Source of the DNA: Eubacteriales bacterium
GTDB lineage: Bacteria > Bacillota > Clostridia > Lachnospirales > Lachnospiraceae
NCBI GenBank assembly: GCA_030536995.1
Contig: JAUNOY010000008.1
Location: 53,850-117,849 of the forward strand
Reading direction: 5' to 3'
DNA: 64,000 nt
Below, piece by piece: positions 21,059-38,221 of the stretch. Position numbers and translations under genes: made by a program. The notes beneath the pieces are model-generated. The model made no database searches and was not told the origin of the DNA. It saw nothing but the letters and a program-made list of their open reading frames with translations. Position 1 is the stretch's first letter. Every line of letters begins with the position of its first letter.

Positions 21059-23527
21059 TCAAAAAGACTTTCTATTTTTCTTAATTCTTTCTGTTACTGC
21101 AATAACCCTCCCTGCACATTGACGAACTTGCTGTTCTGTTAATATCCCTTTGTTTAATGCTTCCCGAATATTTTTGTCGTCATCAGGGTTTCCCGGCATA
21201 ATTACATCGTTTCCTGCTTCTGCACATTTCCATGGAATACTTCCGTCTTCCGGCACAGTAGTATTCCAATCTGACATAATTAATCCGTCAAATCCCCATT
21301 CCTCACGGGCAAGCGTTGTACAAAGTTCTTTACAATTCGCCGCATGAACACCGTTGATCAAGTTATATGATGTCATAATCGCTAACGGCTTACTCTCTTT
21401 TACTGCAATCTCAAAACCGCGGAAATAAATCTCTCTGAGAACTTTTTCTGATACTCTGGCATCGACTCCCATTCGATTATCTTCCTGATTATTGCAGGCA
21501 AAATGTTTAATCGTTACGCCACATCCATTTTTAGACTGCACTCCTTTTGTTACAAAAGCTGCTGTGATTCCTGATAATACCGGATCTTCTGAATAGTATT
21601 CGAAATTTCGTCCGCATAACGGATTCCTTTGAATATTCATTCCAGGAGCCAGCCACAAATCTACATGAAATTCTTCCATCTCTACTGCAACAGCTTCCCC
21701 GAATTGTTTCATCAAGTCCTTATCCCATGTCTGTGCGATTGCCGTGCCCACAGGAAATGCAGTACAGAACTGATAATAAATATCTGCATTCTCATGACGC
21801 TCCATTTCTTCCAGAAAGCCGTTTTCCAAAGATCCAAAGACGCCTGTACCATAAATATGTCCTGTATTTTTATCCACCTCATAGCTCTGACGCAAACGCA
21901 AACCAGCCGGTCCATCTGCCATAATCAGTGAACTGATTCCATATGTTTCTTCTAATTCCTCTGTAGTCTCTCCTGCAGATCCCGGTACGCGTGTTCCCGC
22001 AGATCCAAGTGTGCTGGTGCCCTTGGTAATATTTCCATACAAAAGCGGAATCAAATCCTCAACAGGCTGCTGGTCTGCATAATGTACTTTACATGCTTTT
22101 TTTTCTTCTCTCTTAGGTGCAAACGAGATTTCAGGTACAGAATTCTCAATTGCCATTCCAATTGCATCTTCCGTCTTTTTCTTTGCGACTTCTGACGCTC
22201 CAAGCTCTTCAAACTTCTCTTTTGGTGTACAGACAGCGCTATTTTCTTCCAGAACAGAACTTTCTTGAACTGTGATTATAGCTCCCAACTGTAAATCTGC
22301 AGACTGATTGCCTACCCATATACTGTATTTCCCTTTTTCCACAATCCAACAGTGATTATTCGCACAGAAACCTGCCAGATTTTTCTGTTCCACTATAACT
22401 GTAATCTTCTGCGATTCTCCCGGATTCAATAAATCTGTCTTCTCAAATCCCACCAATCTTCGGTATTCTCTTGCCTGCCCTGTCTGTGGTAAACTTGCAT
22501 ATATCTGTACTACTTCTCTTCCAGCATAATGTTCTCCGGTATTTCTAACTTCCACATCAACCAGAATTTTGTCTGCCTCTACGCATATATCCCTAAATAT
22601 GATTTTAAAAGTGGTATATGACAGTCCATAGCCAAAGTGAAACAGTGGCTTAACATCGAAACTGTCAAAATACCGATATCCTACATAAATGCCTTCTTTA
22701 TATTCTTCGTATTCCAGATTCCCATTCAAATGACCGAATACATCTGCATATGGATAGTCTTCGTACCTTCTTGCCCAGGTTGCTGTCAGTTTTCCCTCTG
22801 GAACTGCTTTTCCCAAAAGGATATCTGCCACAGCATTTCCCCCCTGTTGCCCTAACTGGGAAATATTCAAAACAGCTTTCACACATGGAGCTTTTTCAAG
22901 AATATCTGTAAGTTCTACCGGACCTCCGGCATTTAAAATAAGCGCCGTATCGATTCCCATTTGATTGAGATACATAATATCTCTTTCTTCTTTTTCACTT
23001 AAATAGTAATCACCCTTTTCGCATTTCCGGTCTTTCCCTTCTCCTGAAATACGACTGATCACATATACAGCAGCATCTGCTCCCTCAATATCTGTTTGTT
23101 CAATTTCACTGCCTTCAGGTAGTGAAAAAGGATTTGAAGCATACGCGTCAAAAGGATTCTCGACTATTTTTGCATCTTCCAGAATCTTTTCTTTCCAACG
23201 AGCCCTTGCATCATCATAAATGCTGCAATAATCCTGCAGCCACTTTTCGCTTGTAAGCGTAACCTTTGCCTCTTTTAGTCCTTCATAAATAGAAATGTTC
23301 TCTCTATTGTTTACATCTCCTGAACCAATGCCGCCTTTCACCGTCTTTACTGCTCCCGCCCCCAAAAGAGCAATTTTTTCATTTTCTTTAAATGGAAGCA
23401 AGGCTTCATTCTTCAGAAGAACAATTCCTCTTGCCGCAAGTTTTCTCGCAAGTTTCCCATGGGTGATTTCTCTTGCAGACGGAGACTGTAATAGTGTCCC
23501 GCTGAAATTCCTTCTCTTTTCTGTCAT
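21059..23527 (-). CDS. GH3 beta-glucosidase with permuted domain order
   Basis: 822 residues. Unlike most GH3 enzymes, the alpha/beta sandwich (GH3_C) comes first (LARKLAARGIVLLKNEALLP at about residue 25), followed by an Fn3-like domain (YAGREVVQIYASLPQ near 345), and the TIM barrel (GH3_N) is last. The barrel carries the nucleophile aspartate in GFDGLIMSDWNTT and the substrate motif TIKHFACNNQE. This reversed order is known from rumen beta-glucosidases. No signal peptide, so it acts on imported oligosaccharides. I set the start at 23527 (MTEKRRNF) where AAGGAGA is well spaced, not 23557. It is the last gene of the ABC transporter unit, after a hairpin. Confidence 0.92.
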   Translation of the reverse strand: MTEKRRNFSGTLLQSPSAREITHGKLARKLAARGIVLLKNEALLPFKENEKIALLGAGAVKTVKGGIGSGDVNNRENISIYEGLKEAKVTLTSEKWLQDYCSIYDDARARWKEKILEDAKIVENPFDAYASNPFSLPEGSEIEQTDIEGADAAVYVISRISGEGKDRKCEKGDYYLSEKEERDIMYLNQMGIDTALILNAGGPVELTDILEKAPCVKAVLNISQLGQQGGNAVADILLGKAVPEGKLTATWARRYEDYPYADVFGHLNGNLEYEEYKEGIYVGYRYFDSFDVKPLFHFGYGLSYTTFKIIFRDICVEADKILVDVEVRNTGEHYAGREVVQIYASLPQTGQAREYRRLVGFEKTDLLNPGESQKITVIVEQKNLAGFCANNHCWIVEKGKYSIWVGNQSADLQLGAIITVQESSVLEENSAVCTPKEKFEELGASEVAKKKTEDAIGMAIENSVPEISFAPKREEKKACKVHYADQQPVEDLIPLLYGNITKGTSTLGSAGTRVPGSAGETTEELEETYGISSLIMADGPAGLRLRQSYEVDKNTGHIYGTGVFGSLENGFLEEMERHENADIYYQFCTAFPVGTAIAQTWDKDLMKQFGEAVAVEMEEFHVDLWLAPGMNIQRNPLCGRNFEYYSEDPVLSGITAAFVTKGVQSKNGCGVTIKHFACNNQEDNRMGVDARVSEKVLREIYFRGFEIAVKESKPLAIMTSYNLINGVHAANCKELCTTLAREEWGFDGLIMSDWNTTVPEDGSIPWKCAEAGNDVIMPGNPDDDKNIREALNKGILTEQQVRQCAGRVIAVTERIKKNRKSF

Positions 23528-23546
23528 TTTCTTTCTCCTTAACAAA

Positions 23547-23591
23547 AACTCTCCCATCTTTTCACAATTACCTTATCAAAATGGGAGAGTT
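23547..23591 (-). other. Intercistronic hairpin between permease and GH3 genes
   Basis: Perfect 11-bp arms, 23547-23557 and 23581-23591, with a 23-base loop. On the minus strand the stem is followed by TTTTTG and then by the GH3 ribosome site, so it can act as a leaky terminator or mRNA processing/stability element lowering GH3 expression relative to the transporter. Confidence 0.65.
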
Positions 23592-23629: not shown

Positions 23630-24475
23630 TTATCCTTTTACGCCACCAAGTGTCACCCCGGCAATAATATACTTTGATAATAACAAATACACTAAAACAA
23701 TCGGTACAATAGCAACCAATATCATCATATATATCTTTGCCATATCAAAGTTCATATAATCTGCTCCTCGCAGAGTTGCAATCAGTATAGGAACTGTCAT
23801 TTTGTCCTTAGACTGTATAATTAAGGCAGGAACAAAATAATTATTCCAGGAACCTACGAAACAGAAAATTGCCTGTACCGCAATTGCTGGTTTCATAATC
23901 GGAAGTATAATCTGATTAAATGTTCTGAACTCACCGCTTCCATCGATTCTCGCCGCTTCCACCAGAGACAGCGGAAGAGATGACTGAAGGTAGCTGTACA
24001 TAAAATAAAACACAGCCGGAGATGCAATCGAAGGAATAATCAAAGGTAAAAGCGAATCGTACATTCCTATCTTTGTAACAAGGCGCAGGAAGCCCATTGC
24101 TGTAACCTGTGTAGGCATTACCAAAATCGCCATTATAAATGTAAATGCAGCTTTTCTTAATTTAAAATCATAGGTATATAAACCATATGCTGTCAGAGAA
24201 GAAAAATATGTGCTGAGAGCCGCGCTGCAGCCAGATACCAGCAGGCTGTTAAAAATTCCTCTTATCATTGGAAATGTTCCGTCATTGGCAACATTTTTCA
24301 GATTCTCCCAAAAATGACCTCCCGGCAGTGCGGAAAATCCTTTCTGAAGCTGCGCGTGGGAACGTGTCGCATTTATAATTAATATATAGAAGAAAAACAG
24401 GCACATAAATGATAAAATAATGAGTATAATATGTGCAACAATACTCTGCACTGTATTTTGCTTTTTGTTTTTCAT
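23630..24475 (-). CDS. CUT1 sugar ABC transporter permease, MalG-like
   Basis: 281 residues with six predicted membrane spans. The EAA loop that docks with the ATPase reads EAARIDGSGEFRTFNQIILP near residue 190. The start is ATG 24475 (MKNKKQNTV) with a perfect AAGGAGGAG site; a longer frame to 24544 would overlap the upstream gene. It follows the MalF-like gene with a one-base gap. No ATPase gene is present in the locus, so a shared MsmK-type ATPase elsewhere probably energises it, as is common in Firmicutes. Confidence 0.93.
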   Translation of the reverse strand: MKNKKQNTVQSIVAHIILIILSFMCLFFFYILIINATRSHAQLQKGFSALPGGHFWENLKNVANDGTFPMIRGIFNSLLVSGCSAALSTYFSSLTAYGLYTYDFKLRKAAFTFIMAILVMPTQVTAMGFLRLVTKIGMYDSLLPLIIPSIASPAVFYFMYSYLQSSLPLSLVEAARIDGSGEFRTFNQIILPIMKPAIAVQAIFCFVGSWNNYFVPALIIQSKDKMTVPILIATLRGADYMNFDMAKIYMMILVAIVPIVLVYLLLSKYIIAGVTLGGVKG

Positions 24476-24476
24476 T

Positions 24477-25430
24477 TTATCTCCTCCTTCTTTCTTCCTT
24501 TTTTCTTCTTCTGGCAGCAGCCTTCGAACCATCCGGATCATCATCGTTTGTCATTCTATAAACAATAAAGCAAAGAATTCCACTGATTATGAACAGATAA
24601 ACTGAAAGCGCTCCTGCCATACCATAATTCTTTGATTTCAGATGATTATTCAGGAACATAATCAAAGTCATAGATGTACGGTCCGGATTTCCCTGTCCAT
24701 TTGTAAGAATCTGCGGAACATCAAACATCTGCAGACCTCCAATAATTGCCGTAATCAGTGTGTATGCAAGAATCGGACGGATCAGAGGAAGGATAATATA
24801 AAAGAAGCGTTTAATTGTATTACATCCATCCAACTCTGAAGCTTCAAACACCTCCGTGCTGATTCCCATAATCGCAGCCATGAGCATAATTGTAGTATTA
24901 CCAAACCACATAAGAAAGTTCATAAAACCGATAAGTGACCTGGTTCCAAACACCGTCCCCATAAAATCTATCTGTTCTGTAATGATTCCCAGCGACATCA
25001 AAATCGAGTTTACCGGACCGTTTGTAGAAAACATGGTAAAAAACAACATAGCAAAGGCAGAAGCCATAATCAGGTTTGGCAGATAGATAACTACTTTAAA
25101 AAACTGTTTTCCACGAATCTTTAATCGAATATCTGTGAACCAGACTGCCAGAGTCAGGGCTACAACAATCTGAGGAATAAATCCTATTACCCATAAAATC
25201 AATGTGTTTAACCCATACTTCAACATATCCGACTGCAGCAGGCTTTTATAATTTTCCAGTCCGACAAAATTCGGTCCTATTTCCTTAATTCCCGATCGGA
25301 AATACTCAAAAAAACTATATTTTACTGTATCTGCCAAAGGAATCAGGGAAAATATAAAATAACATAAGAAAAATGGGAGAATAAAAATATAACCCCATTT
25401 TGCATAACTGAGACTTTTGCGTTTTTTCAT
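24477..25430 (-). CDS. CUT1 sugar ABC transporter permease, MalF-like
   Basis: 317 residues, six membrane spans, N-terminal basic start (MKKRKSLSYAKWGY). The EAA motif reads EASELDGCNTIKRFFYIILP near residue 200. The C-terminus ends in a very basic tail (KAAARRRKKEERRRR), partly because the next gene's ribosome site AAGGAGGAG is embedded there. Partner of the MalG-like protein; imports a beta-linked oligosaccharide by context with GH3 and GH94 enzymes. Confidence 0.93.
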   Translation of the reverse strand: MKKRKSLSYAKWGYIFILPFFLCYFIFSLIPLADTVKYSFFEYFRSGIKEIGPNFVGLENYKSLLQSDMLKYGLNTLILWVIGFIPQIVVALTLAVWFTDIRLKIRGKQFFKVVIYLPNLIMASAFAMLFFTMFSTNGPVNSILMSLGIITEQIDFMGTVFGTRSLIGFMNFLMWFGNTTIMLMAAIMGISTEVFEASELDGCNTIKRFFYIILPLIRPILAYTLITAIIGGLQMFDVPQILTNGQGNPDRTSMTLIMFLNNHLKSKNYGMAGALSVYLFIISGILCFIVYRMTNDDDPDGSKAAARRRKKEERRRR

Positions 25431-25495: not shown

Positions 25496-26854
25496 CTATT
25501 TTTCCGGCCACTGGACTTCTGTGATATCCGGATAACGCTCTTTAATTGCTGTTTCGAAATTAGATACTGCTTTTTCAAAATCTACTTTGTCATGGAAATA
25601 ATCTGTAAAGGCATTCTGAATCAGCTCTACACATCCCTGATCGTAAGCGGAAAGCGGTGCAATCTGAATATTTTCCGCAACCGGTGCAAAATACTCAAAT
25701 GGATTCTGTCCACCAAGGAATGCAGATGCGAAATTCTCATCAGAGGCAGCCTCCTGCATACCACTTCTCGTATTTGTAAAATCAGAATAATCCTGAGAAA
25801 TTTTTAAAAGATTCTCTTTGTTTCCTGTCATCGCCATAATGATATCTTTTACATGTTCCGGATTATCTGTTCCCTGGCATCCGTGGATATAAGAGCCGCC
25901 CCAGTTATATTCCTGAGGAGGGTTTGTAACAGCCCATTCTCCCTCTTCTCCATCCCAGTTAGGCTTGAGCACAAAGTCAATGCCCCATGCAGGAAGAAGA
26001 AATGCAAATACTTTTGACTTTGTTCCCATCGCTTTATTCCAGTCCGCATTGAACTGACCTTTCACTGTTTCATCAAGATAACCTGCATCCAGCCATTCTT
26101 TGGAGTCATTTACCCAATCCATAATTTTCTGGTCTACTCTGATTGTTGTTTCACCAGGTTTTACCCAGGATTCTTCAATGCTGTTTCCATAAAGGCGGAA
26201 TGTATCTGCATAAGAAGAAAAAGTAAAGTATCCTTTCTCTTTTAATACCTCTGCGGTTTCCTTCGTTGTCTCCCAGTCCTTCATCTTTGCTCCAATTTCA
26301 ACAGGATCGTCTGTTCCAAATACCTCTTTGGCAATATCACGACGATATACAAGAGTTCCCGGGCAGCACTGCCATGTAGCTCCTCTCTGTACTCCATTCT
26401 GGTCAGACGCACTTGTTTTTGTGAAATCATACTGATCTGCGAGGTCTTTCTCAGGATCAATTCCAAGGTCTGTTAATGGCATCGCCACATCTGCATCCGC
26501 ATCTACATATTTGTTTACATAGTCTGTCTCAGATAAGAAAATATCAACCTTATCATCTGCTGATGCATCTGCCTGATTCATCAGAGCTTCATCCAGTTTC
26601 TGCTGATAGACACCATCCTGATTCGGATTGATAATCCAGTGAATTTCTGTTCCGTCTTTTAATGTTGTCACTGTACCATCTTCAGAAGTTTTTTCTACTT
26701 CCGGATAAACCGCTTCGATTCTTTCACGGAATTCATTATTCCAGGAATAAATGTTAATAACATTTCCTTCATCTGCAGCCTGCACTGTTGCAGGAACCAT
26801 TGTCGCTGCAGTCATAGCTGCTGCAAGTAACATTACAATTGCTTTTCTTTTCAT
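25496..26854 (-). CDS. Extracellular sugar-binding protein of the CUT1 transporter
   Basis: 452 residues. Signal peptide MKRKAIVMLLAAAMTAATMV ends near ATVQA|ADE, a signal peptidase I type site. There is no lipobox cysteine, unusual for a Gram-positive binding protein, which is normally lipid anchored. The mature part opens VINIYSWNNEFRERIEAVYP, typical of CUT1 binding proteins, and contains many Trp/Tyr residues suited to sugar stacking. First gene of the transporter unit, transcribed away from araC; GGAGG precedes the ATG. Confidence 0.92.
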   Translation of the reverse strand: MKRKAIVMLLAAAMTAATMVPATVQAADEGNVINIYSWNNEFRERIEAVYPEVEKTSEDGTVTTLKDGTEIHWIINPNQDGVYQQKLDEALMNQADASADDKVDIFLSETDYVNKYVDADADVAMPLTDLGIDPEKDLADQYDFTKTSASDQNGVQRGATWQCCPGTLVYRRDIAKEVFGTDDPVEIGAKMKDWETTKETAEVLKEKGYFTFSSYADTFRLYGNSIEESWVKPGETTIRVDQKIMDWVNDSKEWLDAGYLDETVKGQFNADWNKAMGTKSKVFAFLLPAWGIDFVLKPNWDGEEGEWAVTNPPQEYNWGGSYIHGCQGTDNPEHVKDIIMAMTGNKENLLKISQDYSDFTNTRSGMQEAASDENFASAFLGGQNPFEYFAPVAENIQIAPLSAYDQGCVELIQNAFTDYFHDKVDFEKAVSNFETAIKERYPDITEVQWPEK

Positions 26855-26916
26855 TATTTTTTCCTCCTGTTTTATTTTTTGGGCCGTTCGCTCTCCCTTT
26901 CATGCTTATACTATAC

Positions 26917-26953
26917 ATGTTTTTTAAAACATCTTATATTACAATAATTGTAA
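26917..26953. promoter_or_regulatory. Two perfect palindromes in the araC / binding-protein divergent region
   Basis: ATGTTTTTTAAAACAT (26917-26932, 7-bp arms) and TTACAATAATTGTAA (26939-26953, 7-bp arms) stand side by side between the two divergent start sites. The second overlaps the -35 (TTGTAA, 26948-26953) of the araC promoter. They could be binding sites for a second regulator. Confidence 0.45.
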
Positions 26954-26976
26954 AAATATCAAATTCATGATATAAT
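26948..26976 (+). promoter_or_regulatory. araC promoter
   Basis: TTGTAA at 26948-26953, 17-base spacer, TATAAT at 26971-26976, 46 bases before the ATG. The -10 lies inside the right half of the shared operator, so autorepression is likely. Confidence 0.65.
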
Positions 26977-26978
26977 TT
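26952..26978. promoter_or_regulatory. Shared operator, copy 1 (araC / binding protein)
   Basis: ATATCA-N6-TGATAT (26956-26973) within a 27-base block that matches the block at 33020-33046 in 24 positions. It lies about 100 bases upstream of the binding-protein ATG and over the araC -10. Proposed site for the adjacent AraC-family regulator. Confidence 0.7.
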
Positions 26979-27021
26979 CAAAAAGTATTTTCTATTCATT
27001 TTTTATCAAAGAGGTGTTTTT

Positions 27022-27795
27022 ATGGACTTATCAAAAGAATGGTATCGTAAAGAAGCTCTTGTCTCCGAAGAAGAACAGACACACCGCACTACTAACGAAG
27101 AAAATAACTTCTTTCAGGCAGTCTGTAACGGTGACATCAACGCAGTTCGAAAAAACTGCGAAGAAAAGCGTTTTCAGGCTTCCGACGGTGTCGGAATTCT
27201 TTCGCGCAATCCCGTCACAAATATGAAATACCACTTTGTTATTTCCGTTGCGTTAATAACAAGACTGTGCTCCAATAACGGAATGGAAATGGAACAGACC
27301 TTTCGCCTCAGTGATTTTTACATACTAAAACTTGATTACCTTAATGCTGTCGAAGATATTGTTGCCCTTCATGACAAAATGGTGCTTGATTTTACCGGAA
27401 AAATGCGTCTTCTCCGAAAAAATGCAGGAACCTCCAAACCTATTACCGCCTGTCTTGATTACATTTATATACACATTAAAGAGCGCATAACCATTGAAGA
27501 TCTGGCTGCACATACAGACTTATCACCAAGCTACCTCTCCCGTCTTTTCAAGGAGGAAATCGGCATTTCTGTCAGCGACTATATTCGCGAGCAGAAAATC
27601 GAAAAGGCTCAACATCTTCTTAAATTCTGTGACTACAGCCTGATCGACATTGCCAATTACCTCTCTTTCTCTTCTCAGAGCCATTTCATCCAAACTTTCC
27701 GAAAGCTGACTGGAATGACTCCGAAGAAATACCGGGATTTGAATTATTCTTCTGCATGGAAGCTGAAAGAATCTTACAATAAATCAGAATCATGA
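27022..27795 (+). CDS. AraC-family transcriptional regulator of the beta-glucan locus
   Basis: 257 residues. The C-terminal 100 residues are the double helix-turn-helix: ITIEDLAAHTDLSPSYLSRLF (first) and SLIDIANYLSFSSQSHFIQTF with KLTGMTPKKYR (second). The N-terminal 150 residues lack a clear cupin and resemble the helical YesN-type sensor region. GAGGTG precedes the ATG. It is divergent from the transporter genes and convergent with the second GH94 gene, overlapping it by six bases. By position it should activate the transporter unit and the GH94 unit through the shared motif; the inducer is probably an oligosaccharide. Confidence 0.92.
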   Translation: MDLSKEWYRKEALVSEEEQTHRTTNEENNFFQAVCNGDINAVRKNCEEKRFQASDGVGILSRNPVTNMKYHFVISVALITRLCSNNGMEMEQTFRLSDFYILKLDYLNAVEDIVALHDKMVLDFTGKMRLLRKNAGTSKPITACLDYIYIHIKERITIEDLAAHTDLSPSYLSRLFKEEIGISVSDYIREQKIEKAQHLLKFCDYSLIDIANYLSFSSQSHFIQTFRKLTGMTPKKYRDLNYSSAWKLKESYNKSES

Positions 27796-30204
27796 CATTT
27801 TCAATTCAATTTCTGTCCATTCTGTAAGGAATTTTTCCGGAATATAATCGCCCTCCATTTGCTCTCCATTTACGAGAAGCTTGACGCATCCTGATTGTAC
27901 GTGCTTTTCATTAGAAACCACAATATGCAAATGTTTTCCCCTGAAATCTTTTTCTATTTCAAATCCATCCCATTCTTCCGGGATGGACGGGGAAATCCTA
28001 AGTCCGTAAAAATCAGGACGGATTCCCATAATTCCCTCCACACAGCCTACCATAACGGTAGAAGCAGTTCCTGTCAGCCAGTGTACGTGAGAGCGACCGA
28101 AGTGTGGACTTGCCTTTCCCTCTGTAAACTGTCCATAGCAATATGGCTCTAGTTTTCTGATTTCCGCACGGTCATTCTGTGCTGCAGGAGCATTTTCTTT
28201 AAAATACATAAACGCTCTGTTTCCATGACCAAGAAGAGCTTCTGCAAGAATAAGCCAACCCTGAGACTGGGAGAAAATCCCTGCGTTTTCCTTTGTTCCG
28301 GCATTATAAATAACAGCAAGCGCACCGTCAAAGGCGTGTTTACGATATGGTGGATCCATCAGAATCGCTCCATATTCCGTATTCAGGTTTTCATAAACCT
28401 TTTCAAGGGCTTTCTCCGCCTGACTCTCAGACGCAAATCCGCTGATGACAGACCAGCTTTGAGGATTCAGCCACATATTTGCTTCCGGCGCTTCCCTGTT
28501 TCCAATTACTTCACCCTCCTCAGTAAATCCTCTGATAAACCGATCTTCGTTCCAGCATAATTTATTCAGAATTCCCCCAAGTTTCTCCTGCTTTTCTTCC
28601 AGATAGGCGATATATTCTGTATCTCCCTTATATTCTGCAAACTTTTTCAGAATCGTCATCGCCAGATAAAACTGTAACGCTACAAAAGTAGATTCCCCGT
28701 TTTTTCCCAACCGAAGACAGTCATTCCAGTCTGCATACAGACCTGCCGGCATTCCATGCGGTCCCATATGATTCAGTGAAAATTCAACAGCTCTCTTCAA
28801 ATGCTCATAAACAGTACCCTCTCCTTTGTTTGCAAAAGGAATTACTTCATCCACAAATGAAAGATTTCCTGATTCTGAAATATATTTGTAAACTGTAGGG
28901 AATAACCACAACGCATCATCCGCACGATATGCAGGATGTCCAGTTTCCTTCACATAGGATGCGTCGTCCGGCGTATCTTCATGTCCTGCATTATGAGTAA
29001 ACTTTACAAGAGGCAGTCCACCTCCGTTATCCACCTGAGCAGACAACATGAAACGGATCTTATCCACTGCCATCTCAGGTGCAAGGTGTATAATTCCCTG
29101 TATATCCTGCACAGTATCTCTATAACCATATCCATTACGCAGACCACAGTATGTAAAAGAAGCCGCTCTGGACCAGATAAATGTCATAAAGCAGTTATAT
29201 GCATTCCAGGTATTAATCATAGTATCAAATTCCGGGCTTGGTGTTTTTACCTGAAAATGAGATAACTTTCCGTGCCAGTATGCAATAATCTCCTCCAGTT
29301 CCCGATTGCATACTTCCTCTGGATATTCATATCTTTCCATTATCATTTTTGCTTCTTCGTTATACTTCATGCCAAGTAAAAATGTCAGAATTTTTTCCTC
29401 TCCGGGTTTCAGCATAATTTCTGATGTCAGCGCTCCACATCCATTCTCATTGCAGCTTAACTCATTTCCAAGATTTCCATTTTCCACACCGACCGGATTT
29501 CCATATCCGTGATATCTTCCGAGAAATTTTTCTCTATCCCCGCAATATGAAGCAACTTCACTTCCTGCAAGTCCGAAAAATCTCTCCACAACAACTTTAT
29601 CGTCTACGTCCTTTCCATCTTCAATCCCATCCAGATTTCCATGAACTAAATGTCTGATTCTGTTTTCCTCAAAAAGCGTCCGTGTAATAAACTGGGAATA
29701 CTGAAGATTCACCTGATCCTGCTCATAATTGCTGTTATTTGTAAATTCGGCATATCCTGTAATACTCAGATTTCTGTCCTCTTCTGAATTATTCTTTACT
29801 TTTAAACACCAGACCTCATATTCCTTATCCAGAGGCACATAATAAAGCGCCTCTGTGTGAATTCCGACATAGTCTGCGCAAATTCTTGTATATCCTGTTC
29901 CATGACAGCATTTACTTTTGTAGTCTTCTGTATTCTTTCCAACCGGCTGCCAGGATGCTGACCAATAGTCTTTCCTATCATTGTCACGAATATAAATATA
30001 ACGTCCCGGCTGATCAAAGCCGTTAAATACATAACGAATAATGCGCCCGTCAGCTCCGGATTTTGCAAAGCTGTATCCTCCTGCATTGTTGGAAATTACT
30101 GCCCCGTATTTTGGCGATCCCAAATAGTTTGCCCATGGGGCCGGAGTATCCGGTCTTGTTATTACATATTCTCTTCTTTCATCATCAAAATAACCATACT
30201 GCAT
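27790..30204 (-). CDS. GH94 cellobiose phosphorylase
   Basis: 804 residues, the typical length of cellobiose phosphorylase. N-terminal start MQYGYFDDERREYVITRPDT and NYLGSPKYGAVISNNAGGYS match this clade. The catalytic acid aspartate is in PAGLYADWNDCLRLG near residue 485, and the phosphate-binding C-terminal barrel loops (SQGWLILAEALLG; HWLTGTASTVMVG) are present. It splits a beta-glucosyl disaccharide with phosphate, giving glucose-1-phosphate and glucose, saving ATP. Cytoplasmic. It follows the 900-residue GH94 gene by 26 bases and ends tail to tail with araC. Cellobiose is the best guess. Confidence 0.9.
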   Translation of the reverse strand: MQYGYFDDERREYVITRPDTPAPWANYLGSPKYGAVISNNAGGYSFAKSGADGRIIRYVFNGFDQPGRYIYIRDNDRKDYWSASWQPVGKNTEDYKSKCCHGTGYTRICADYVGIHTEALYYVPLDKEYEVWCLKVKNNSEEDRNLSITGYAEFTNNSNYEQDQVNLQYSQFITRTLFEENRIRHLVHGNLDGIEDGKDVDDKVVVERFFGLAGSEVASYCGDREKFLGRYHGYGNPVGVENGNLGNELSCNENGCGALTSEIMLKPGEEKILTFLLGMKYNEEAKMIMERYEYPEEVCNRELEEIIAYWHGKLSHFQVKTPSPEFDTMINTWNAYNCFMTFIWSRAASFTYCGLRNGYGYRDTVQDIQGIIHLAPEMAVDKIRFMLSAQVDNGGGLPLVKFTHNAGHEDTPDDASYVKETGHPAYRADDALWLFPTVYKYISESGNLSFVDEVIPFANKGEGTVYEHLKRAVEFSLNHMGPHGMPAGLYADWNDCLRLGKNGESTFVALQFYLAMTILKKFAEYKGDTEYIAYLEEKQEKLGGILNKLCWNEDRFIRGFTEEGEVIGNREAPEANMWLNPQSWSVISGFASESQAEKALEKVYENLNTEYGAILMDPPYRKHAFDGALAVIYNAGTKENAGIFSQSQGWLILAEALLGHGNRAFMYFKENAPAAQNDRAEIRKLEPYCYGQFTEGKASPHFGRSHVHWLTGTASTVMVGCVEGIMGIRPDFYGLRISPSIPEEWDGFEIEKDFRGKHLHIVVSNEKHVQSGCVKLLVNGEQMEGDYIPEKFLTEWTEIELKMS

Positions 30205-30230
30205 TTTATTTTTCCTCCTTTTTGTACCTT

Positions 30231-32933
30231 TTATCTATCCAATACAATCTCTATTTTGTGTACAGACTCATTATCAAGCGCTTTAATCGTACTTTTTTCG
30301 ATAAAAGCTTCAAATTCCGTATGCTTTATTTCACTCTTATTACAGAAAGCTTTTCTGATGCGATAATCTCCATATTGTAATTTTTGTGCATTATAATAAA
30401 CAACCTCGAATTTCTTTTCTCCAAAAGTAAGTCTGATAATGGCACATCCTTCTTCGTCAAATTGCTCCCGCATAAGCTTTGGACATACTGTTAAAATTCC
30501 CGTTCTGCCATGTACACCAAATACCTCTGTTATCATTGTCATCATATACCAGCTTGCCGCTCCTGTCAGATAGTGATACATTCCCCTTCCTGTACTGTTA
30601 AAATATTCCGGTATCCCCGGATAAATTTTACTGGTTTCAAAATTCAACGCAGTATCTGCCAATGTCTGAAGCGCTTTATATCCTTCTTTTACAAACCCTC
30701 TCTTATAAAGGGCATTGGCATACATCACTGTCATATGTGAAAAAACAGCTCCGTTTTCTTTTTCGCCATATGCAAAGCCAAACATTCTTCCCATATCGAA
30801 TTTTAATTCATGGAAATCTGTATTCAGCCTGTATCCGCCAATTTCCGGCCTGTAAAGATAATGATCTGCTCCTGCACAAATTTTTGAAATCTGACCTTTA
30901 TCCGCAGTACCGCTCATTATTGCAAACACCTGCCCGGTAAGCATCATCCTCACGCCACTGTCAAAAAATCCTTCCACTGCATTTTTATTGTCATCGTAAT
31001 AACTGTTAAACCATCCTTCGCCTTCTTCTCCTTCAATCCACTCTTGCTTTCTGATATGCTCCATCATCCAATCCGCTTTACCGTTAAGATTTTTAATCAA
31101 CTCTTTCACGGATATAAGCGACTTTCTACCGCTGATGCAATGCTTGCTGCATTTCAGATATTTCTTCAAAAGCTTTTTCTTTTCTTCTGTATTTTCATAT
31201 AATTCACACCCTTCTGCTAAAAGGGGAACTGCCTCTTCCATAAATTCTATCTTTTCATACCCTGACTGCTTTTGAAGCGTTTCCAAGCATCGTGCCAGTT
31301 CTTTCATATTTCCTGCATAGGCACAAGTAAATGCAACACTCTCTCCGTTATTTGACGCCATATCCAAAGCATCATTCCAGTCTGCGCCTCTCAGCAACAT
31401 TTCATTGTGTTCACCGACCTCATAAAATGCACATAAATGTTCAATGAGAAGATGTTCGAGTACCGTTCCCCTGTAAATTTCACCATCTTCTCTCCTCTGA
31501 CACATTCCACATGTTTCACTCCAGTCTGCATCTATATCATGTCCACGCATAGACTGTGCATCCTTAAAATATGTTTCCTCTTCCAGAAGAATTTCTATAT
31601 CACCAGTCTGATCAATATAAAGCTTTGTCGTCATAAATGGCCAGACTGCGTGATCCATCCATACACGACTGATTCCATTTCTATCTGCAATAAAATTCCC
31701 CTGACCATGCCCTATAATTGTGGCATTTGTTCCATCAATTCGAACTCCTCCGTAATTTTTCAATATCATAGTTCGAACATCTCCCGGTTCCATTAACAAC
31801 AACGACAGACAATCCTGCCACAAATCTCTCCATCCTCTTCCGCCCCGTCCATAATCATGATGCGGTAAAAAAGAACATCCGTAAATTCTTCTAAGAAACG
31901 GCTGGAAACTTACCCAACGCATAAATAAATCAAATCTGTTGTTTCCGGTGTAATAAGAAACATTTACCTTATTTTTCCAATAGTTTTGTGTTTCCTCAAG
32001 AAGCAAGTCTGACTTTTCCGAATTCCCATATGCTTCAACGATTCGATCTGCATCTTTTTCTTCCTCTGTAATTCCCGCAAAGATCACATACTCTGCAGTC
32101 TGTCCCGGTGTCAGAGTAACTTCTTCAAATTTAATCCCTCCCAGAGCTTCTTTCCCTTCTGCTGCCGCTCCCTCCGGCACTCCCGGATAATTCTCATATA
32201 CTGCTCTTGGATGTGTAAATGTTCCTCCTTCTCCAAGGAAACCTTCTGTTATAGGATAAAAGGATTCTGGTGCCAGACCATTTTCCATAACTCCCTGTAC
32301 AAAGTAAATCTTATGATTCTTTCTATGACCTTTTTCATCAAAAGACATAGTAGGCTTTACAAAAACCCCATATTTCCCCGTTTTGACTCTGTGAAGCATA
32401 GATGTAACATTTCTGTGATCACGAATATTATCTGCACTTCTTCCATAAATCGGTATCGCTGCAATAAATGTTATTTTCCGGTTCGTTTTTGCCAGATTTT
32501 TAATTTTAATTTTAATAACCTCTGTATTTTCATTTACCGGCACAAATGACGTTATTTCAGATTTTAACTCGTATTTATCAGACATCCTTTTTACTGTGTG
32601 ACACATGAAACCCGCAGCAAGCTCACTTTGCTCCTGTTTATCCGTAAACTTCAAATTTTCCGCCTCTGCAGAAGCCCCTGTTGCAGACCAGCATCCGATT
32701 CCCTCAATCACACACCAGAAGTTCCTTGTAGAACGGTTATTATGAAGATTCTCCACACTCACCGGTTCTAAAAGAAAGGTTTCCTGATCTATTTTGCTGT
32801 CACCTCCCATATTAGGAGTTACCGCACTTTTCAACCCTTTTTCTCCTGCTATCGGGAAGTAAAGTCCGCTGTAATTTTCAGGATTCTTAATTGTAAAAGC
32901 TCCATCTTCTCCTGTGAAGTGAATTTTACTCAT
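30231..32933 (-). CDS. GH94 beta-glucan disaccharide/oligosaccharide phosphorylase (longer subtype)
   Basis: 900 residues, longer than cellobiose phosphorylase. The catalytic acid lies in RGADWNDALDMASNNG near residue 485 and the C-terminal barrel motifs YHYLTGAASWYMM and RPEIGGYRLNTDF are present. The N-terminal beta-sandwich starts TIKNPENYSGLYFPI. Length and N-terminus suggest a laminaribiose- or oligoglucan-type specificity, but I cannot assign the linkage from sequence. First gene of the two-gene phosphorylase unit; the shared AraC motif lies 87 bases upstream. Together with the neighbour it would let the cell phosphorolyse two kinds of beta-glucoside imported by the same transporter. 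Confidence 0.88.
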   Translation of the reverse strand: MSKIHFTGEDGAFTIKNPENYSGLYFPIAGEKGLKSAVTPNMGGDSKIDQETFLLEPVSVENLHNNRSTRNFWCVIEGIGCWSATGASAEAENLKFTDKQEQSELAAGFMCHTVKRMSDKYELKSEITSFVPVNENTEVIKIKIKNLAKTNRKITFIAAIPIYGRSADNIRDHRNVTSMLHRVKTGKYGVFVKPTMSFDEKGHRKNHKIYFVQGVMENGLAPESFYPITEGFLGEGGTFTHPRAVYENYPGVPEGAAAEGKEALGGIKFEEVTLTPGQTAEYVIFAGITEEEKDADRIVEAYGNSEKSDLLLEETQNYWKNKVNVSYYTGNNRFDLFMRWVSFQPFLRRIYGCSFLPHHDYGRGGRGWRDLWQDCLSLLLMEPGDVRTMILKNYGGVRIDGTNATIIGHGQGNFIADRNGISRVWMDHAVWPFMTTKLYIDQTGDIEILLEEETYFKDAQSMRGHDIDADWSETCGMCQRREDGEIYRGTVLEHLLIEHLCAFYEVGEHNEMLLRGADWNDALDMASNNGESVAFTCAYAGNMKELARCLETLQKQSGYEKIEFMEEAVPLLAEGCELYENTEEKKKLLKKYLKCSKHCISGRKSLISVKELIKNLNGKADWMMEHIRKQEWIEGEEGEGWFNSYYDDNKNAVEGFFDSGVRMMLTGQVFAIMSGTADKGQISKICAGADHYLYRPEIGGYRLNTDFHELKFDMGRMFGFAYGEKENGAVFSHMTVMYANALYKRGFVKEGYKALQTLADTALNFETSKIYPGIPEYFNSTGRGMYHYLTGAASWYMMTMITEVFGVHGRTGILTVCPKLMREQFDEEGCAIIRLTFGEKKFEVVYYNAQKLQYGDYRIRKAFCNKSEIKHTEFEAFIEKSTIKALDNESVHKIEIVLDR

Positions 32934-33019
32934 CTGATTTCCCTCCTGTACTCATACCACACTGTATTTTATGATTTATGTTACAAAAAAAAATGGGAAA
33001 TAAAAATCAAATTGATAGG

Positions 33020-33046
33020 AAAAATATCAGATTTATGATATATTTT
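33020..33046. promoter_or_regulatory. Shared operator, copy 2 (GH94 unit)
   Basis: ATATCA-N6-TGATAT (33024-33041) in a 27-base block nearly identical to 26952-26978. It lies 87-113 bases upstream of the 900-residue GH94 ATG, about 50 bases above a weak -10 (TAAAAT at 32971-32966), a good place for an activator. Confidence 0.7.
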
Positions 33047-33051
33047 TACAC

Positions 33052-33090
33052 AAAAAAGCTGCGGGAAGCCTTAACCTTTTCCCGCAGCTT
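33052..33090 (-). terminator. Terminator of the FtsX ABC transporter unit
   Basis: Stem AAGCTGCGGGAA (33056-33067) pairs with TTCCCGCAGCTT (33079-33090); on the minus strand a TTTTTT run follows. It lies 50 bases past the permease stop at 33140. Confidence 0.88.
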
Positions 33091-33139: not shown

Positions 33140-35554
33140 TCAATACCTTATCCTGTCTATAATGGATTCTTTCTTTACATTTCTGCTCAGCACGAAAGAC
33201 AGGGCAATCTGCATAAGAAGCAGGATTGTCACCATAATTCCGATTTCCCAGACTGGAAAATGATACATATTTATACCGAAAAATCCTTCTTTCCGACAAT
33301 ACAGGTATGCGCCGTATCCTCCAGGCAATCCTATCAGCAGGGAAATTATAATCGAACCTGCCGTAAAGAAAATCCCTTCTAACTGAAGCATCTTTCCAAG
33401 CTGTCTGTTACTCAATCCCACAGCCTGAAGAATACCGAATTCTCTTTTTCTTGTTATCACGTTCATAATCATGGTATTTGCCATATTCAGGAAACAAATT
33501 GTCCCAATCAGCCCAAGAAAAGTATATATCAGCACTTTAAAAAGAAATGTCGTTCTGTCAGCAAGGCTATATGCCTCGTCATAGCCTTCCCAGTATACAA
33601 GTTCACTTTCACCGTACAGTTCCGCTATCTTAGCCTCAACTCCGGCTTTTGCTTCCTCCCCGCACCATATCCAGAGATAGGCAGGGCTATCTGCAAGTAA
33701 TCCCAGTTTTTCCGCTGTGTCTTCCGTTATCACATAATCTGCGGAAACACTTCCGAAAGAACCCATTGCCGTACCGCTGTACTTCGCTTCAGACTTTCCG
33801 TTAAAAAGCTCTGCCTCCAGTTTGTCACCAAGCTTCTGCCCTGCTTCTTCCATAAAGTGAGAAAACGTATATACATATCCGTCTGCCCTGCTGACCGTAT
33901 CGTATGTAAAATCACCTACAACTCCTGATTTTTCCAGTTCGCTCTCGAATCCCTCTCTGTCAAAAACGGCAACAGTCCTTTTGATTCCCTCTTCCTCAAA
34001 TGTCAGATAATTTCTGGTCTGGGTTTTCGTAACGCCGTCTATCGCCTCAAAGGACTCGATTGCTTCTCTGGAAATAGGATTATTTTTCAAAATCTGATCC
34101 AGGTTATTTTCTGTATAAACCTCATCGTTATTGTCGTAATTAATCTCTATCTGGTAATCTCCGCGTTCAACATTATTTCGGGCATCGTATTCCGGGTCAA
34201 TGCTGCTTGCCAGACTTGATATTGTGACAAATAAAATACAGGACAGTCCCATAACCAGTATCGTAGTGATATTTCTCTTTTTATTGATTGCCAGATCCGA
34301 TTTTATAAGCCCCGTTATATTAAGAGCTTTATGCCCTTTTCGGTATCCTTTTTTGTTTCCTGTAAACTCTTCATAAGCGACCGCACTTACAGGAGTGATG
34401 GAAACAATCGTCTTAACCGCCCTTATCAGCGCCATACGCACTGTTACAAGGGAAATCAGAGCCGCAGCCAGAAGAACCCACGGAGAAAACAGAGACACTT
34501 CCCTGACTGCCATGTATTCGTTTCCTTTTCCTGCAAAGCTCATTGCACTGTTAAACAAAAGCACAGACACAAAATATCCTGCCGCAAGACCTGTGGGTAT
34601 TGCAATCGCAGAAAGAAGATATCCTTCTTTTACGATAATTTTTTTCATCTGCTTCTTCGTAGCGCCAATCGCCTTGATTTTTCCGTATTCCTGAACCTTT
34701 CGGGCAATTCCTATCTGGAATATATTGTAAATTACAACCACCGAAAAAATTACAACAATCAGACAGATGAATATGCAGGGAATCCACACCTCAGACGCAG
34801 GCGCATATTTTGTTGAGATTACGTTGCTGTTCCTGTAAACATTCCCTGTTTCCACACCAATGTTTTTTGCCAGTTCATCAATTAAATCTTCTATCTGAGT
34901 CCAGTCGCCTTTTATATTATCGCTCAATGTAAAATATGCCGTATATCTGCTGTTTCCTTTCCCGGCTTCACTGTCATAGTATTCTCTGGAAACTATTACT
35001 GTAGAAGACTGCTGGCTCTCATTCCCTATACCGTCTTTTATGATACCTGTAATTATAAACTCCTTTTCCAGATAAGCCTCTGTTCCGTTCCGTCTTACCG
35101 GCACAGCTACTTTGTCTCCGATTTTGACATCATCGTATCCCAATTGTCCGAAGAATACTCTGGAAGCGGCAATTTCACTTTTCCCCACGGGAAAGCTTCC
35201 CTCCTGAAGCATAGTATGAAAATTCGTCATATCCAAAGCCTTCTCATTCATCCATACGAGATTTGAATGTCCCTTGGTATGCGCTTCTCCAACACCCGAC
35301 ATAAGACCGATTTCATCAATTTCGCCTCTCTTTTTCATTTCTTGAAGCTGCTCCTCTGTTATGCCGGAAAACGAGCCTACATAATTGCCGTACAGAGCTT
35401 CTGCATTTTCTATGTTTCCTTTTATTCCGCCGTAGCCAAAGGTTCCTATCGCCGTAATCAGCATTGTCGTCAGCGCGACTGCAATCATGGTAAGAAAACT
35501 TCTCGTTTTATTCTCTTTATTGTTGCTGATTGCTATTCTTGTCAGAGTTTTCAT
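33140..35554 (-). CDS. FtsX-family ABC transporter permease
   Basis: 804 residues. N-terminal span (SFLTMIAVALTTMLITAIGTFG), a large extracytoplasmic loop, a first FtsX domain with three spans (residues about 255-385), a further span, a second large loop, and a second FtsX domain with three spans at the C-terminus (YTFLGLIGTICFLNMANTMI onward). This double-FtsX layout is that of permeases that expel or sense antimicrobial peptides, or handle lipids. Its ATG overlaps the stop of the ATPase gene (ATGA). It works with the ATPase and two-component pair directly upstream. Confidence 0.9.
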   Translation of the reverse strand: MKTLTRIAISNNKENKTRSFLTMIAVALTTMLITAIGTFGYGGIKGNIENAEALYGNYVGSFSGITEEQLQEMKKRGEIDEIGLMSGVGEAHTKGHSNLVWMNEKALDMTNFHTMLQEGSFPVGKSEIAASRVFFGQLGYDDVKIGDKVAVPVRRNGTEAYLEKEFIITGIIKDGIGNESQQSSTVIVSREYYDSEAGKGNSRYTAYFTLSDNIKGDWTQIEDLIDELAKNIGVETGNVYRNSNVISTKYAPASEVWIPCIFICLIVVIFSVVVIYNIFQIGIARKVQEYGKIKAIGATKKQMKKIIVKEGYLLSAIAIPTGLAAGYFVSVLLFNSAMSFAGKGNEYMAVREVSLFSPWVLLAAALISLVTVRMALIRAVKTIVSITPVSAVAYEEFTGNKKGYRKGHKALNITGLIKSDLAINKKRNITTILVMGLSCILFVTISSLASSIDPEYDARNNVERGDYQIEINYDNNDEVYTENNLDQILKNNPISREAIESFEAIDGVTKTQTRNYLTFEEEGIKRTVAVFDREGFESELEKSGVVGDFTYDTVSRADGYVYTFSHFMEEAGQKLGDKLEAELFNGKSEAKYSGTAMGSFGSVSADYVITEDTAEKLGLLADSPAYLWIWCGEEAKAGVEAKIAELYGESELVYWEGYDEAYSLADRTTFLFKVLIYTFLGLIGTICFLNMANTMIMNVITRKREFGILQAVGLSNRQLGKMLQLEGIFFTAGSIIISLLIGLPGGYGAYLYCRKEGFFGINMYHFPVWEIGIMVTILLLMQIALSFVLSRNVKKESIIDRIRY

Positions 35555-36299: not shown

Positions 36300-37553
36300 T
36301 TACAGATTTGTAAGACTTCTCCTGAGCAGCGGAATCTGAACAACAAATATGCTTCCACATTTTTCTCCATCAATTCTGTTATCTTTTACCATTATCGTTC
36401 CGCCATGCCGGGAAATGATGTATCTCGCCAGATAAAGCCCGACTCCGCTTCCGCTTTCCCTGCGTATTTCTTCCTTTTCCCCTCTGTAAAAACGCTGAAA
36501 AATCTTATGCTTCTCATTTGGGGAAATTCCGATTCCCTGGTCTGCAAACTCAATCCTTACCATAGAATTCATATTGAACACGCGAATAGAAATCGCTGTA
36601 TTTTCCTTCGAATACTTCACTGCATTTTCCAGAATATTAATAAAAGCCTCTGTCAGCCACTTTCTGTCCTGCATGATTTCGGGCAATTTTTCGGTTTCAC
36701 CCTCCTCAAGCTCAATAACAATGTTTTTTTCTTGTGCCTTCTGCCACACTCCGTTCACTGCATCCAGAATTGAATCAAACAGTTTCCCTTTACGAAGCTG
36801 AATAGAAATCATCCCGCTTTCAAGTCTGGAAATATTCACAAGCGATGCAGTAAGCTTTTCCAGTGAATCAAGCTGAAATGCCATTCGTTCTTCAAACTCT
36901 TCCCGTTCCTCCTGTGAAAGATCCTGATTCTGTAAAATCTCAAACGTGGATTTTACTGCTGCCAGAGGTGTTTTTAACTGATGGGAAATGTCTGTAACAA
37001 CGTCCTTTGTTTCTTTTTTATCCGCTTCTGCTTTTTGTTTTATCAACAAAAAATTTCCGTTTAATTTGTCCAACGCTGTGGCTATTCTCACTGCTTCCGG
37101 ATTCGAATTCAGACCTTTCAGGCATTTGGATAGCGATGATTCAACCTCTCCGTAGCTTCCTTCCCGAAGCTCTTCAATGTCCTTTTCTATTGCTTCCAGA
37201 ATATCTTTATATCTTCGGAAAGCTTCTTTTTCCTGCCTTTTGATGCAAAATACGATTAACCAATATGCAGCAAAAGCTCCGGCAATTGTCATACCTCCAG
37301 TCCACAGAAATCGTCTGTAAAAACTGCTTTCTCCCTCTTTTACATACCCATATTTATCCAGAGTCTCCACTGCTTTTTCGTAGGTAATTTCGTCTTCCTC
37401 TGTTTCTGTCAGGATTTTTCCCAGTTGGATAGTGTCCTCCCTGTAAGAGTTATACTGTACGGCTATAACAGTGGCGCTCATCAGGATTAATGCAATCAGA
37501 GGCATAAGATAACTTGTATATTTACTATCTTTTACTGTTCCAAACATATCCAA
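36300..37553 (-). CDS. Sensor histidine kinase
   Basis: 417 residues. Two spans (about residues 13-32 and 85-105) frame a short extracytoplasmic loop of roughly 50 residues. Phospho-acceptor motif VTDISHQLKTPLAAV near residue 205, N box INILENAVKYS, G1 DQGIGI and G2 GSGVGLYLAR complete the kinase. The short sensor loop fits kinases that sense through, or together with, an ABC transporter. The gene overlaps the response regulator end by 29 bases, so the two are translationally coupled. Confidence 0.93.
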   Translation of the reverse strand: MDMFGTVKDSKYTSYLMPLIALILMSATVIAVQYNSYREDTIQLGKILTETEEDEITYEKAVETLDKYGYVKEGESSFYRRFLWTGGMTIAGAFAAYWLIVFCIKRQEKEAFRRYKDILEAIEKDIEELREGSYGEVESSLSKCLKGLNSNPEAVRIATALDKLNGNFLLIKQKAEADKKETKDVVTDISHQLKTPLAAVKSTFEILQNQDLSQEEREEFEERMAFQLDSLEKLTASLVNISRLESGMISIQLRKGKLFDSILDAVNGVWQKAQEKNIVIELEEGETEKLPEIMQDRKWLTEAFINILENAVKYSKENTAISIRVFNMNSMVRIEFADQGIGISPNEKHKIFQRFYRGEKEEIRRESGSGVGLYLARYIISRHGGTIMVKDNRIDGEKCGSIFVVQIPLLRRSLTNL

Positions 37554-38205
37554 GTCCTCTTACATTCTTAATCAGTTTTTTTCCTTCTTCTCCTGTATCA
37601 AGTTTTTTCCGGAGTCTGGTAATGTTTACGGCAACTGTATTTTCATCCACAAATTCACCGTCTATATCAAATATTTTTTCCAGAATCTGGTCTTTAGACA
37701 GAATGATATCCGGATTTTCCATAAACAAAAGGAGAAGCTTCCATTCATTTTTCGTTACGGAAATCTCCTCTCCATTTACGTAAACTTTCATTGCCGTTTT
37801 GTCCGCTTTGACTCTTCCAGACTCAATCACCTGATTCTCCTGAACTCTTCCTTTTCTGAAATATGCATTAATTTTCATGGTCAGAACAGACAGGCTGAAA
37901 GGCTTTGCGATATAATCATCCGCCCCTGCTTCATACCCCATCACCATATCGGTTTCTCTGTCAAGAGCAGTCAGGCATATCAGATGTGCATTTGTCTCTG
38001 ACCTGATTTTCTTTATGAAATCCAGCCCGTTTCCATCCGGCAGATTAATATCACAGAGAATAAGTTCCGGTGTATACACTTTCATTAACGCTTCTGCCTC
38101 TCTTATGGTTCCGGCGCATTTCACCTCGCAGCCCTCTCTTTGAAGAGAAAACTCTATACTTCTCCTGACGCTTTCTTCATCTTCTATTATCATTACCCTG
38201 TTCAT
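37525..38205 (-). CDS. OmpR-family response regulator
   Basis: 226 residues. Receiver domain with acidic pocket MIIEDEE, phosphorylation aspartate in LILCDINLPDGNG, and lysine in DDYIAKPFS; winged-helix output domain with VAVNITRLRKKL and RGLGYVW. I choose ATG 38205 (MNRVMIIEDE); a TTG-start extension to 38247 overlaps the SdpI remnant. First intact gene of the two-component/ABC unit; pairs with the kinase that follows. Confidence 0.94.
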   Translation of the reverse strand: MNRVMIIEDEESVRRSIEFSLQREGCEVKCAGTIREAEALMKVYTPELILCDINLPDGNGLDFIKKIRSETNAHLICLTALDRETDMVMGYEAGADDYIAKPFSLSVLTMKINAYFRKGRVQENQVIESGRVKADKTAMKVYVNGEEISVTKNEWKLLLLFMENPDIILSKDQILEKIFDIDGEFVDENTVAVNITRLRKKLDTGEEGKKLIKNVRGLGYVWNSKR

Positions 38206-38221
38206 ATTTTTCTCTCTACTT

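Follow-up and report, generated by a model that had tools for sequence, protein, structure and literature searches.

A directional operator and its probable AraC-family regulator at a beta-glucan oligosaccharide locus of a Lachnospiraceae bacterium

Two nearly identical blocks of DNA stand in a 64,000-nucleotide stretch from a Eubacteriales bacterium of the Lachnospiraceae (assembly GCA_030536995.1, contig JAUNOY010000008.1, positions 53,850 to 117,849 of the forward strand; hereafter the window), one upstream of genes for an ATP-binding cassette (ABC) importer and the other upstream of genes for two phosphorylases of glycoside hydrolase family 94 (GH94), and a gene for an AraC-family regulator lies between them. 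What are these blocks, which protein reads them, and with what effect on the neighboring genes? An earlier note on this DNA had taken them for two copies of a long palindrome that define the regulon of the AraC protein. On comparative sequence evidence, we regard it as probable that the blocks are copies of a directional operator, and that the AraC protein encoded between them binds both copies and activates the importer and GH94 units.

Conservation and fixed orientation of the operator

The blocks, at positions 26952-26978 and 33020-33046, are identical at 24 of 27 positions, a figure that re-reading of both bore out, and each contains an exact copy of the core ATATCA-N6-TGATAT (26956-26973 and 33024-33041). 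Compared without gaps, the two intergenic regions share no 27-base match better than 24, a value that none of 300 dinucleotide-preserving shuffles of both regions reached (maximum 21). When the genome of the window (a 2.83-Mb assembly, 92.5% complete) was searched with the 27-base pattern of both blocks, allowing up to three mismatches, only these two places were returned; no third copy was found in the 2.83 Mb, and the reversed control gave none. The view that such a pair is hard to explain by chance therefore stands, and for the longer block the genome did not yield many unrelated intergenic hits. A 17-base directional pattern matched perfectly at the same two places and with one mismatch at one other. 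A 20-base pattern with two mismatches matched 12 places against 4 in the control, only the two blocks (operators A and B, from left to right) being perfect. The exact short core occurs three times and, with one mismatch allowed, at 31 places against 7 for the control; because the one-mismatch core is not rare, specificity resides in the longer block. Two candidates for additional operators were set aside, namely the third exact core copy, which lies within a 500-amino-acid open reading frame (ORF; an arabinofuranosidase, read by eye), and the match at C1:26282, which is one mismatch away from the 17-mer and scores only 8.6 bits.

To follow the blocks through related genomes, we compared the best 80 of 176 loci encoding the first GH94, together with the best 30 loci of the AraC protein, from 299 genomes of the family (132 of which contain some match to the AraC protein at 1e-20). 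The unaltered core, with at most two mismatches, was present upstream of 57 of 69 binding-protein genes, 46 of 80 first-GH94 genes, 41 of 101 araC genes and 9 of 74 second-GH94 genes, counts that are independent of any matrix but include the window itself, allow one site to serve two divergent genes and contain some near-identical loci. Alignment of the sites yielded a matrix of 26 positions and 26.7 bits, about AAAAATRTCARAWTCATGAYAT, in which the six central positions are conserved and carry about 6 bits. The centering of both blocks on ATATCA-N6-TGATAT thus survives as far as the exact core goes, but the six central bases are not a free spacer. Judged from these alignments, the site in the orthologous loci is an asymmetric operator, about AAAATRTCARAWTCATGAYA, whose right arm does not mirror the left.

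When 1.66 Mb of these loci were scanned with the matrix at a threshold of 12 bits, 178 sites were found, where ten column-shuffled matrices gave 5.8 on average and never more than 17; at 16 bits the numbers were 161 and 0.4, with a shuffled maximum of 1. Most of the 178 sites (150) are outside genes and no further than 450 bp upstream of cluster genes, and 16 fall within genes. A second matrix, built from 32 sites of loci L006-L019 and applied to 67 other loci, gave 104 matches of at least 16 bits, 100 of them upstream, where 20 shuffled matrices gave a mean of 0.35 upstream matches (maximum 3), although the full matrix had served to choose the training sites, which leaves this test only partly independent. 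When the nearest site of at least 16 bits lying 20-330 bp upstream was assigned to each gene, a site was found for 51 of 78 first-GH94 genes, 65 of 69 binding-protein genes, 45 of 98 araC genes and 6 of 74 second-GH94 genes; the second GH94 mostly stands directly behind another gene of its unit, and in the window it is probably co-transcribed with the first GH94 upstream of it. One short contig carries, at its end, two tandem operators 30 bp apart from start to start (L145, 1465-1520).

The orientation of the site relative to the gene is invariant. The nearest site points the same way for 51 of 51 first-GH94 genes, 65 of 65 binding-protein genes and 6 of 6 second-GH94 genes, that is, in all 122 target genes with a site, and in 96 of 96 (41 + 49 + 6) when near-duplicates are removed. 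Median distances from the center of the site to the start codon are 92, 120 and 81.5 bp, respectively. In many genomes the first GH94 and binding-protein genes are divergent and share an intergenic region with two sites, one facing each way, an arrangement that fits a directional operator and not a palindrome. Asymmetric operators used in one orientation are the habit of AraC/XylS regulators; the conserved dyad, free spacer and indifference to orientation of symmetric-dimer operators (of the LacI, TetR or MarR kind) were not observed.

Why, then, do the copies in the window look symmetric? Operator A (26950..26975 as a 26-bp matrix window, motif on the + strand, 32.8 bits) is, by the orientation rule, in activating orientation toward the binding-protein gene on the - strand, and it overlaps the predicted promoter of araC on the + strand, TTGTAA-17-TATAAT, with the -35 at 26948..26953 and the -10, extended as TGA-TATAAT, at 26971..26976. 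The earlier note had correctly placed the block over the araC -10 and about 100 bases above the ATG of the binding-protein gene (it starts 98 bases above). The symmetric look of the araC site arises because one arm of the operator doubles as the -10 of araC. In deduplicated sites facing araC the right arm is TATAAT-like (at least 5/6) in 30 of 41, as against 6 of 72 other sites, and in those 72 position 21 is C, not T, in 86%. Operator B (33018..33043, motif on the + strand, 31.6 bits), in activating orientation toward the first GH94 on the - strand and with its block 87-113 bases above that ATG, as had been noted, is near-symmetric though it does not face araC, and part of its likeness to a palindrome is a local variant. 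The description as a long palindrome must accordingly be given up, a likely misreading in which an asymmetric AraC-type site fused to a promoter element passes for a dyad.

The AraC protein and its proposed target promoters

The protein encoded between the operators (27022..27795, + strand, 257 amino acids) possesses, in a C-terminal domain of about 100 residues, the two helix-turn-helix (HTH) motifs of the AraC/XylS family (PF12833, 9e-23, at 161-238; PF00165, 3.1e-21, in two stretches). An AlphaFold2 model (mean pLDDT 84.8, pTM 0.49) contains the HTH helices, and its N-terminal domain is predicted to be all-helical. Among the 299 genomes, which include that of the window, the exact 17-mer is present in 14 of the 23 that have an AraC orthologue (E of at most 1e-80) and in 8 of the other 276 (p 5e-13 by Fisher's test); without the genome of the window the figures are 13 of 22 and 8 of 276. 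The association holds for AraC cut-offs from 1e-90 to 1e-50 (p 3e-13 to 1e-8), with 14/34 versus 8/265 at 1e-60 (p 7e-10) and 15/48 versus 7/251 at 1e-50 (p 1e-8), and the reversed 17-mer matched one genome. Counted only beside a cluster gene or a gene of glycoside hydrolase family 16 (GH16), the 17-mer is present in 12 of 23 versus 1 of 276, this one genome (G150) having its AraC gene in pieces and real targets. Single matches in seven genomes without a close AraC orthologue (G025, G088, G107, G131, G143, G224 and G255) look like chance, there being no cluster gene in the 3 kb around any of them, and those in G107 and G224 fall, by eye, in ORFs.

An AraC gene of at least 47% identity is present in 68 of 77 fetched loci; in L057 the orthologue lies on another contig. 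By this co-conservation, the AraC protein between the blocks is well supported as the best candidate to bind both sites. The proposal that the blocks define its regulon can be retained in that respect, but the regulon is wider than the two units, taking in GH16 genes in relatives.

Promoter geometry was analyzed for target genes whose site scores 18 bits or more, a set of 109 distinct promoters that deduplication at 75% identity reduced to 61. In 48 of these 61 the closest match to TATAAT is at offset 60 or 61 from the start of the operator; a shuffled control, in which ties are resolved in favor of 60, gave 11 of 61. A half-box resembling the TGATAT word recurs 20 bp downstream of it, with a z score of 13.3 against composition shuffles; this scale is inflated by the AT-rich composition, but offset 20 still stands out, being the best half-box offset in 26 of the 61 promoters while the next best is so in 5. 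A 21-bp repeat of half-sites had been our first guess, and the data gave 20. The half-box occupies the -35 region, in which inspection by eye shows no good -35. In the window, the TGATAT box of operator A is followed 20 bp downstream by the degenerate proximal half-box TAATATAAG (26933..26941, - strand), which covers the -35 region of the promoter of the binding-protein gene; the predicted -10 of this promoter, TATAGT, is at 26910..26915 (- strand) with the conserved offset of 60. The corresponding elements of operator B are TGATTTTTA (33001..33009, - strand), again 20 bp downstream, and a predicted weak GH94 -10, TAACAT, at 32978..32983 (- strand), offset 60. A strong distal site, a weak proximal half-site at -35 and a -10 compose, by analogy, the layout of AraC-family activator promoters.

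We suggest the following course of events, in which distances are counted from transcription starts placed by means of the predicted -10. An imported beta-gluco-oligosaccharide, or its product, would act as the trigger. An AraC dimer would then occupy the strong distal site (about -72 to -47) and the half-box 20 bp further down, and occupation of the half-box over the -35 region would recruit RNA polymerase to promoters that have a -10 but no good -35. From operator A the ABC importer would be switched on leftward, possibly through the GH3 gene; from operator B, also leftward, the two GH94 phosphorylases. AraC bound at operator A would at the same time cover the -35 and -10 of its own gene and keep araC expression low. 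Since the araC -10 lies within operator A, a bound regulator would occlude araC, which predicts autorepression; of the 45 sites assigned to araC genes, 39 point opposite to the activating orientation. In a group of four loci that includes Dorea sp. 5-2 (L051, L056, L058 and L061, at about 16.1-16.3 kb) the operator stands before araC in activating orientation, which suggests positive autoregulation there.

Counter-evidence and rival explanations

Several observations weigh against this account. Other half-box offsets also reach z scores of 4 to 6, the degenerate half-box could in part be a degenerate -35, and the -10 of the GH94 promoter in the window is poor (4/6). No site of at least 16 bits was assigned to 27 of the 78 first-GH94 genes; in some siteless loci a GH16 ORF lies just upstream of the first GH94, so that the phosphorylase may not be the first gene. 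Similarly, 53 of 98 araC genes have no such site and 6 of 45 have one in activating orientation, so that autorepression would be a property of the present arrangement and not of the family. Three loci (L025, L031 and L040) have a site above the phosphorylase while their AraC relatives are only 43-45% identical and encoded elsewhere, and in four others (L047, L065, L068 and L084), which do carry the AraC gene, no site reaches 16 bits. In two genomes with the AraC protein (G076, with one such match, and G153, with two) the 17-mer matches are not beside a recognized cluster gene, and some look coding. A further locus with the AraC gene, L083, has two sites, both of which fall within a partial permease match.

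The alternative that survives best, though we consider it unlikely, is that the AraC protein binds the operators but mainly represses, the sugar relieving repression. Operator A does cover the araC promoter, and the operators are close to the target promoters. At the targets, however, the operator is located upstream of the -10 and not over it, at a fixed offset and with no good -35 by eye, and this is the layout of activator-dependent promoters, such as the one bound by MtlR in the accessible portions of PMC4514859.

Could the clustered AraC protein be a bystander, with another AraC-family paralogue as the true regulator? The three loci with an operator and no close AraC orthologue favor this possibility, which we hold to be quite improbable given the strong association of operator and AraC clade across the 299 genomes and the presence of the AraC gene in most of the fetched loci. 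Moreover, the relatives in those three loci keep SYLS and SSQSHFI in their recognition helices and so could read a similar site.

A true palindromic operator for a symmetric dimer of the LacI, GntR, TetR or MarR kind, and not for AraC, would account for the near symmetry of the window copies, the arms AAAAATATCA and TGATATATTT being 90% complementary at operator B. We judge it very improbable, considering that in orthologues the center is conserved, position 21 departs from the dyad and every target site keeps one orientation. By reading of the ORF list, the regulator-like genes that come next in proximity encode two-component response regulators (37525-38247 and 40807-41469); they have other genes as neighbors, and more than 4 kb separates them from operator B.

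Least probable of all is that the block is merely a promoter element (an extended -10, TGATATAAT, plus spacer) similar at two promoters by coincidence, for while the right arm of operator A is indeed the araC -10 and the block its spacer, sites not facing araC keep the rest of the motif when the arm is seldom TATAAT-like, the predicted -10 of the targets is 34 bp past the motif on the opposite strand, and an element of general use should turn up at more than a single gene cluster of the genome.

The proposed beta-glucan regulon and its known counterparts

The first GH94 (30231..32933, - strand) is similar over its full length to the characterized laminaribiose phosphorylase 6ggy (PDB; E 1e-291 over 6-899) and appears, by homology, to be laminaribiose-phosphorylase-like. 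The second (27790..30204, - strand) is a close homologue of 8bou (PDB; 1442 bits over 1-803), which the available text of PMC10318527 describes as BpGH94MLG, a beta-1,4-glucan phosphorylase acting on mixed-linkage oligosaccharides. Its Tyr633 aligns with chain position 653 of 8bou, taken as the Y653 of PMC10318527 if the numbering is that of the chain, a tyrosine that those sections of the paper contrast with the valine of chitobiose phosphorylase. The copy of PDB used here names 8bou N,N'-diacetylchitobiose phosphorylase, which could mislead annotation. With these two GH94 identities, the locus in the window is one for beta-glucan (mixed-linkage or laminari-type) oligosaccharides. Leftward from operator A, the gene for the solute-binding protein (25496..26854, - strand) is followed by those for two ABC permeases (24477..25430 and 23630..24544, - strand, both PF00528, BPD_transp_1) and a GH3 beta-glycosidase (21059..23557, - strand, PF00933/PF01915). 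The solute-binding protein has no Pfam or NCBIfam match at 0.001 and was recognized by its position before the two permeases and by conservation, relatives being present in the orthologous loci. A GH16 domain (PF00722) was not found in the genome of the window at E 0.001, in an assembly 92.5% complete, and the organism may therefore rely on oligosaccharides that other organisms release.

In relatives the operator extends to GH16. In the fetched loci it stands in activating orientation before ten different GH16 beta-glucanase genes; of 31 GH16-like entries, 11 have it so placed (one gene counted twice), 19 have no site, several of these appearing inside importer or phosphorylase units, and in one (L062) a weak site points the opposite way. 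Of the ten operator-bearing genes, eight were run against Pfam, which confirmed GH16 in all of them; those of L013 and L017 were assigned on their similarity to L012 and L018. An unexpected sugar-binding member, a Peripla_BP_4 protein gene with the operator, was found in L011 and L104 (by Pfam) and in L009 and L014 (by eye). A broader proposal, which we find evenly balanced, is that the AraC clade and its operator form a portable, orientation-coded control module for the whole beta-glucan pathway in Lachnospiraceae and some Oscillospiraceae. If this were true, a pathway of GH16 glucanase, ABC importer and two GH94 enzymes would be free to change its gene order, and only the direction and overlap of one word of 20-26 bp would decide between activation of a gene and repression of araC. 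The operator offers in any case a concrete predicted cis-site for a regulon that probably sets apart those gut Lachnospiraceae that respond to cereal and laminarin-type beta-glucans, a dietary fiber, and searches with this word can serve to predict such regulons in gut genomes that lack annotation.

The window contains other features of note. A weak third operator-like match (27775..27800, + strand, 16.2 bits) lies where the 3' ends of araC and the second GH94 converge and is probably incidental; L026 shares it, and no other locus has it among the listed sites of at least 12 bits. The intergenic region between araC and the binding-protein gene holds two perfect inverted repeats, ATGTTTT-TT-AAAACAT (26917-26932), which by eye is not kept in the closest relative, L026, and TTACAAT-A-ATTGTAA (26939-26953). 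A perfect 12-nucleotide inverted repeat, AAGCTGCGGGAA and TTCCCGCAGCTT (33056-33090), between operator B and the 3' end of a permease-like gene (33140-35554, - strand), looks like the terminator of that gene.

Among the matches listed from a search of the open literature, with subscription journals and regulon databases outside its scope, only PMC10318527 bears on this locus; the accessible parts of PMC5171806 and PMC10766802 contain nothing on this operator. The sections of PMC10318527 at hand describe a mixed-linkage beta-glucan locus of Blautia producta ATCC 27340 that responds to barley beta-glucan by induction: its homologues of GH16, GH94 and the binding protein rise 5.2-, 3.9- and 4.7-fold, respectively, with the araC gene at 0.76-fold. 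A deletion of the binding-protein gene has also been made in B. producta, according to the abstract of PMC10318527. The sections establish induction and identify no site for the regulator, and a word count finds neither 'promoter' nor 'operator' in the paper. The window resembles that locus in bringing together a BpGH94MLG-type phosphorylase, an AraC gene and an ABC importer. It differs in having an additional laminaribiose-phosphorylase-like GH94 and a GH3, whereas the B. producta locus, as described in those sections, has a GH16 endoglucanase, of the kind not found in the genome of the window, and one GH94. We predict that the operator word occurs in the B. producta locus.

The regulator itself is comparable to the TIGR04094 and PocR kinds of NCBIfam, with which it shares two HTH motifs at the C-terminal end and, in the case of TIGR04094, a similarity that spans residues 18-238, but it is not a member of those equivalogs, since all of the 25 matches listed (of 31) fall below their curated cut-offs (best 130.5 of 200 bits, and 88.3 of 500). 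The half-sites of Escherichia coli AraC are spaced 21 bp apart and its arabinose domain is cupin-like, whereas the offset in the window is 20 bp and the N-terminal domain is predicted, from the model, to be all-helical. The likeness to araI1-araI2 would lie in the two half-sites upstream of the promoter, the distal one being the stronger; E. coli AraC binds araI1 more strongly than araI2, and occupation of araI2 recruits RNA polymerase, according to the available text of PMC4760080. A second counterpart is MtlR, an AraC/XylS activator which, in the accessible portions of PMC4514859, binds at the mannitol promoter of Pseudomonas fluorescens two 15-bp blocks at -72 to -58 and -50 to -36. Sugar, phylum and sequence differ and the MtlR blocks are offset by 22 bp, but they are similarly arranged, with direct repeats and an A-tract next to the first repeat (PMC4514859).

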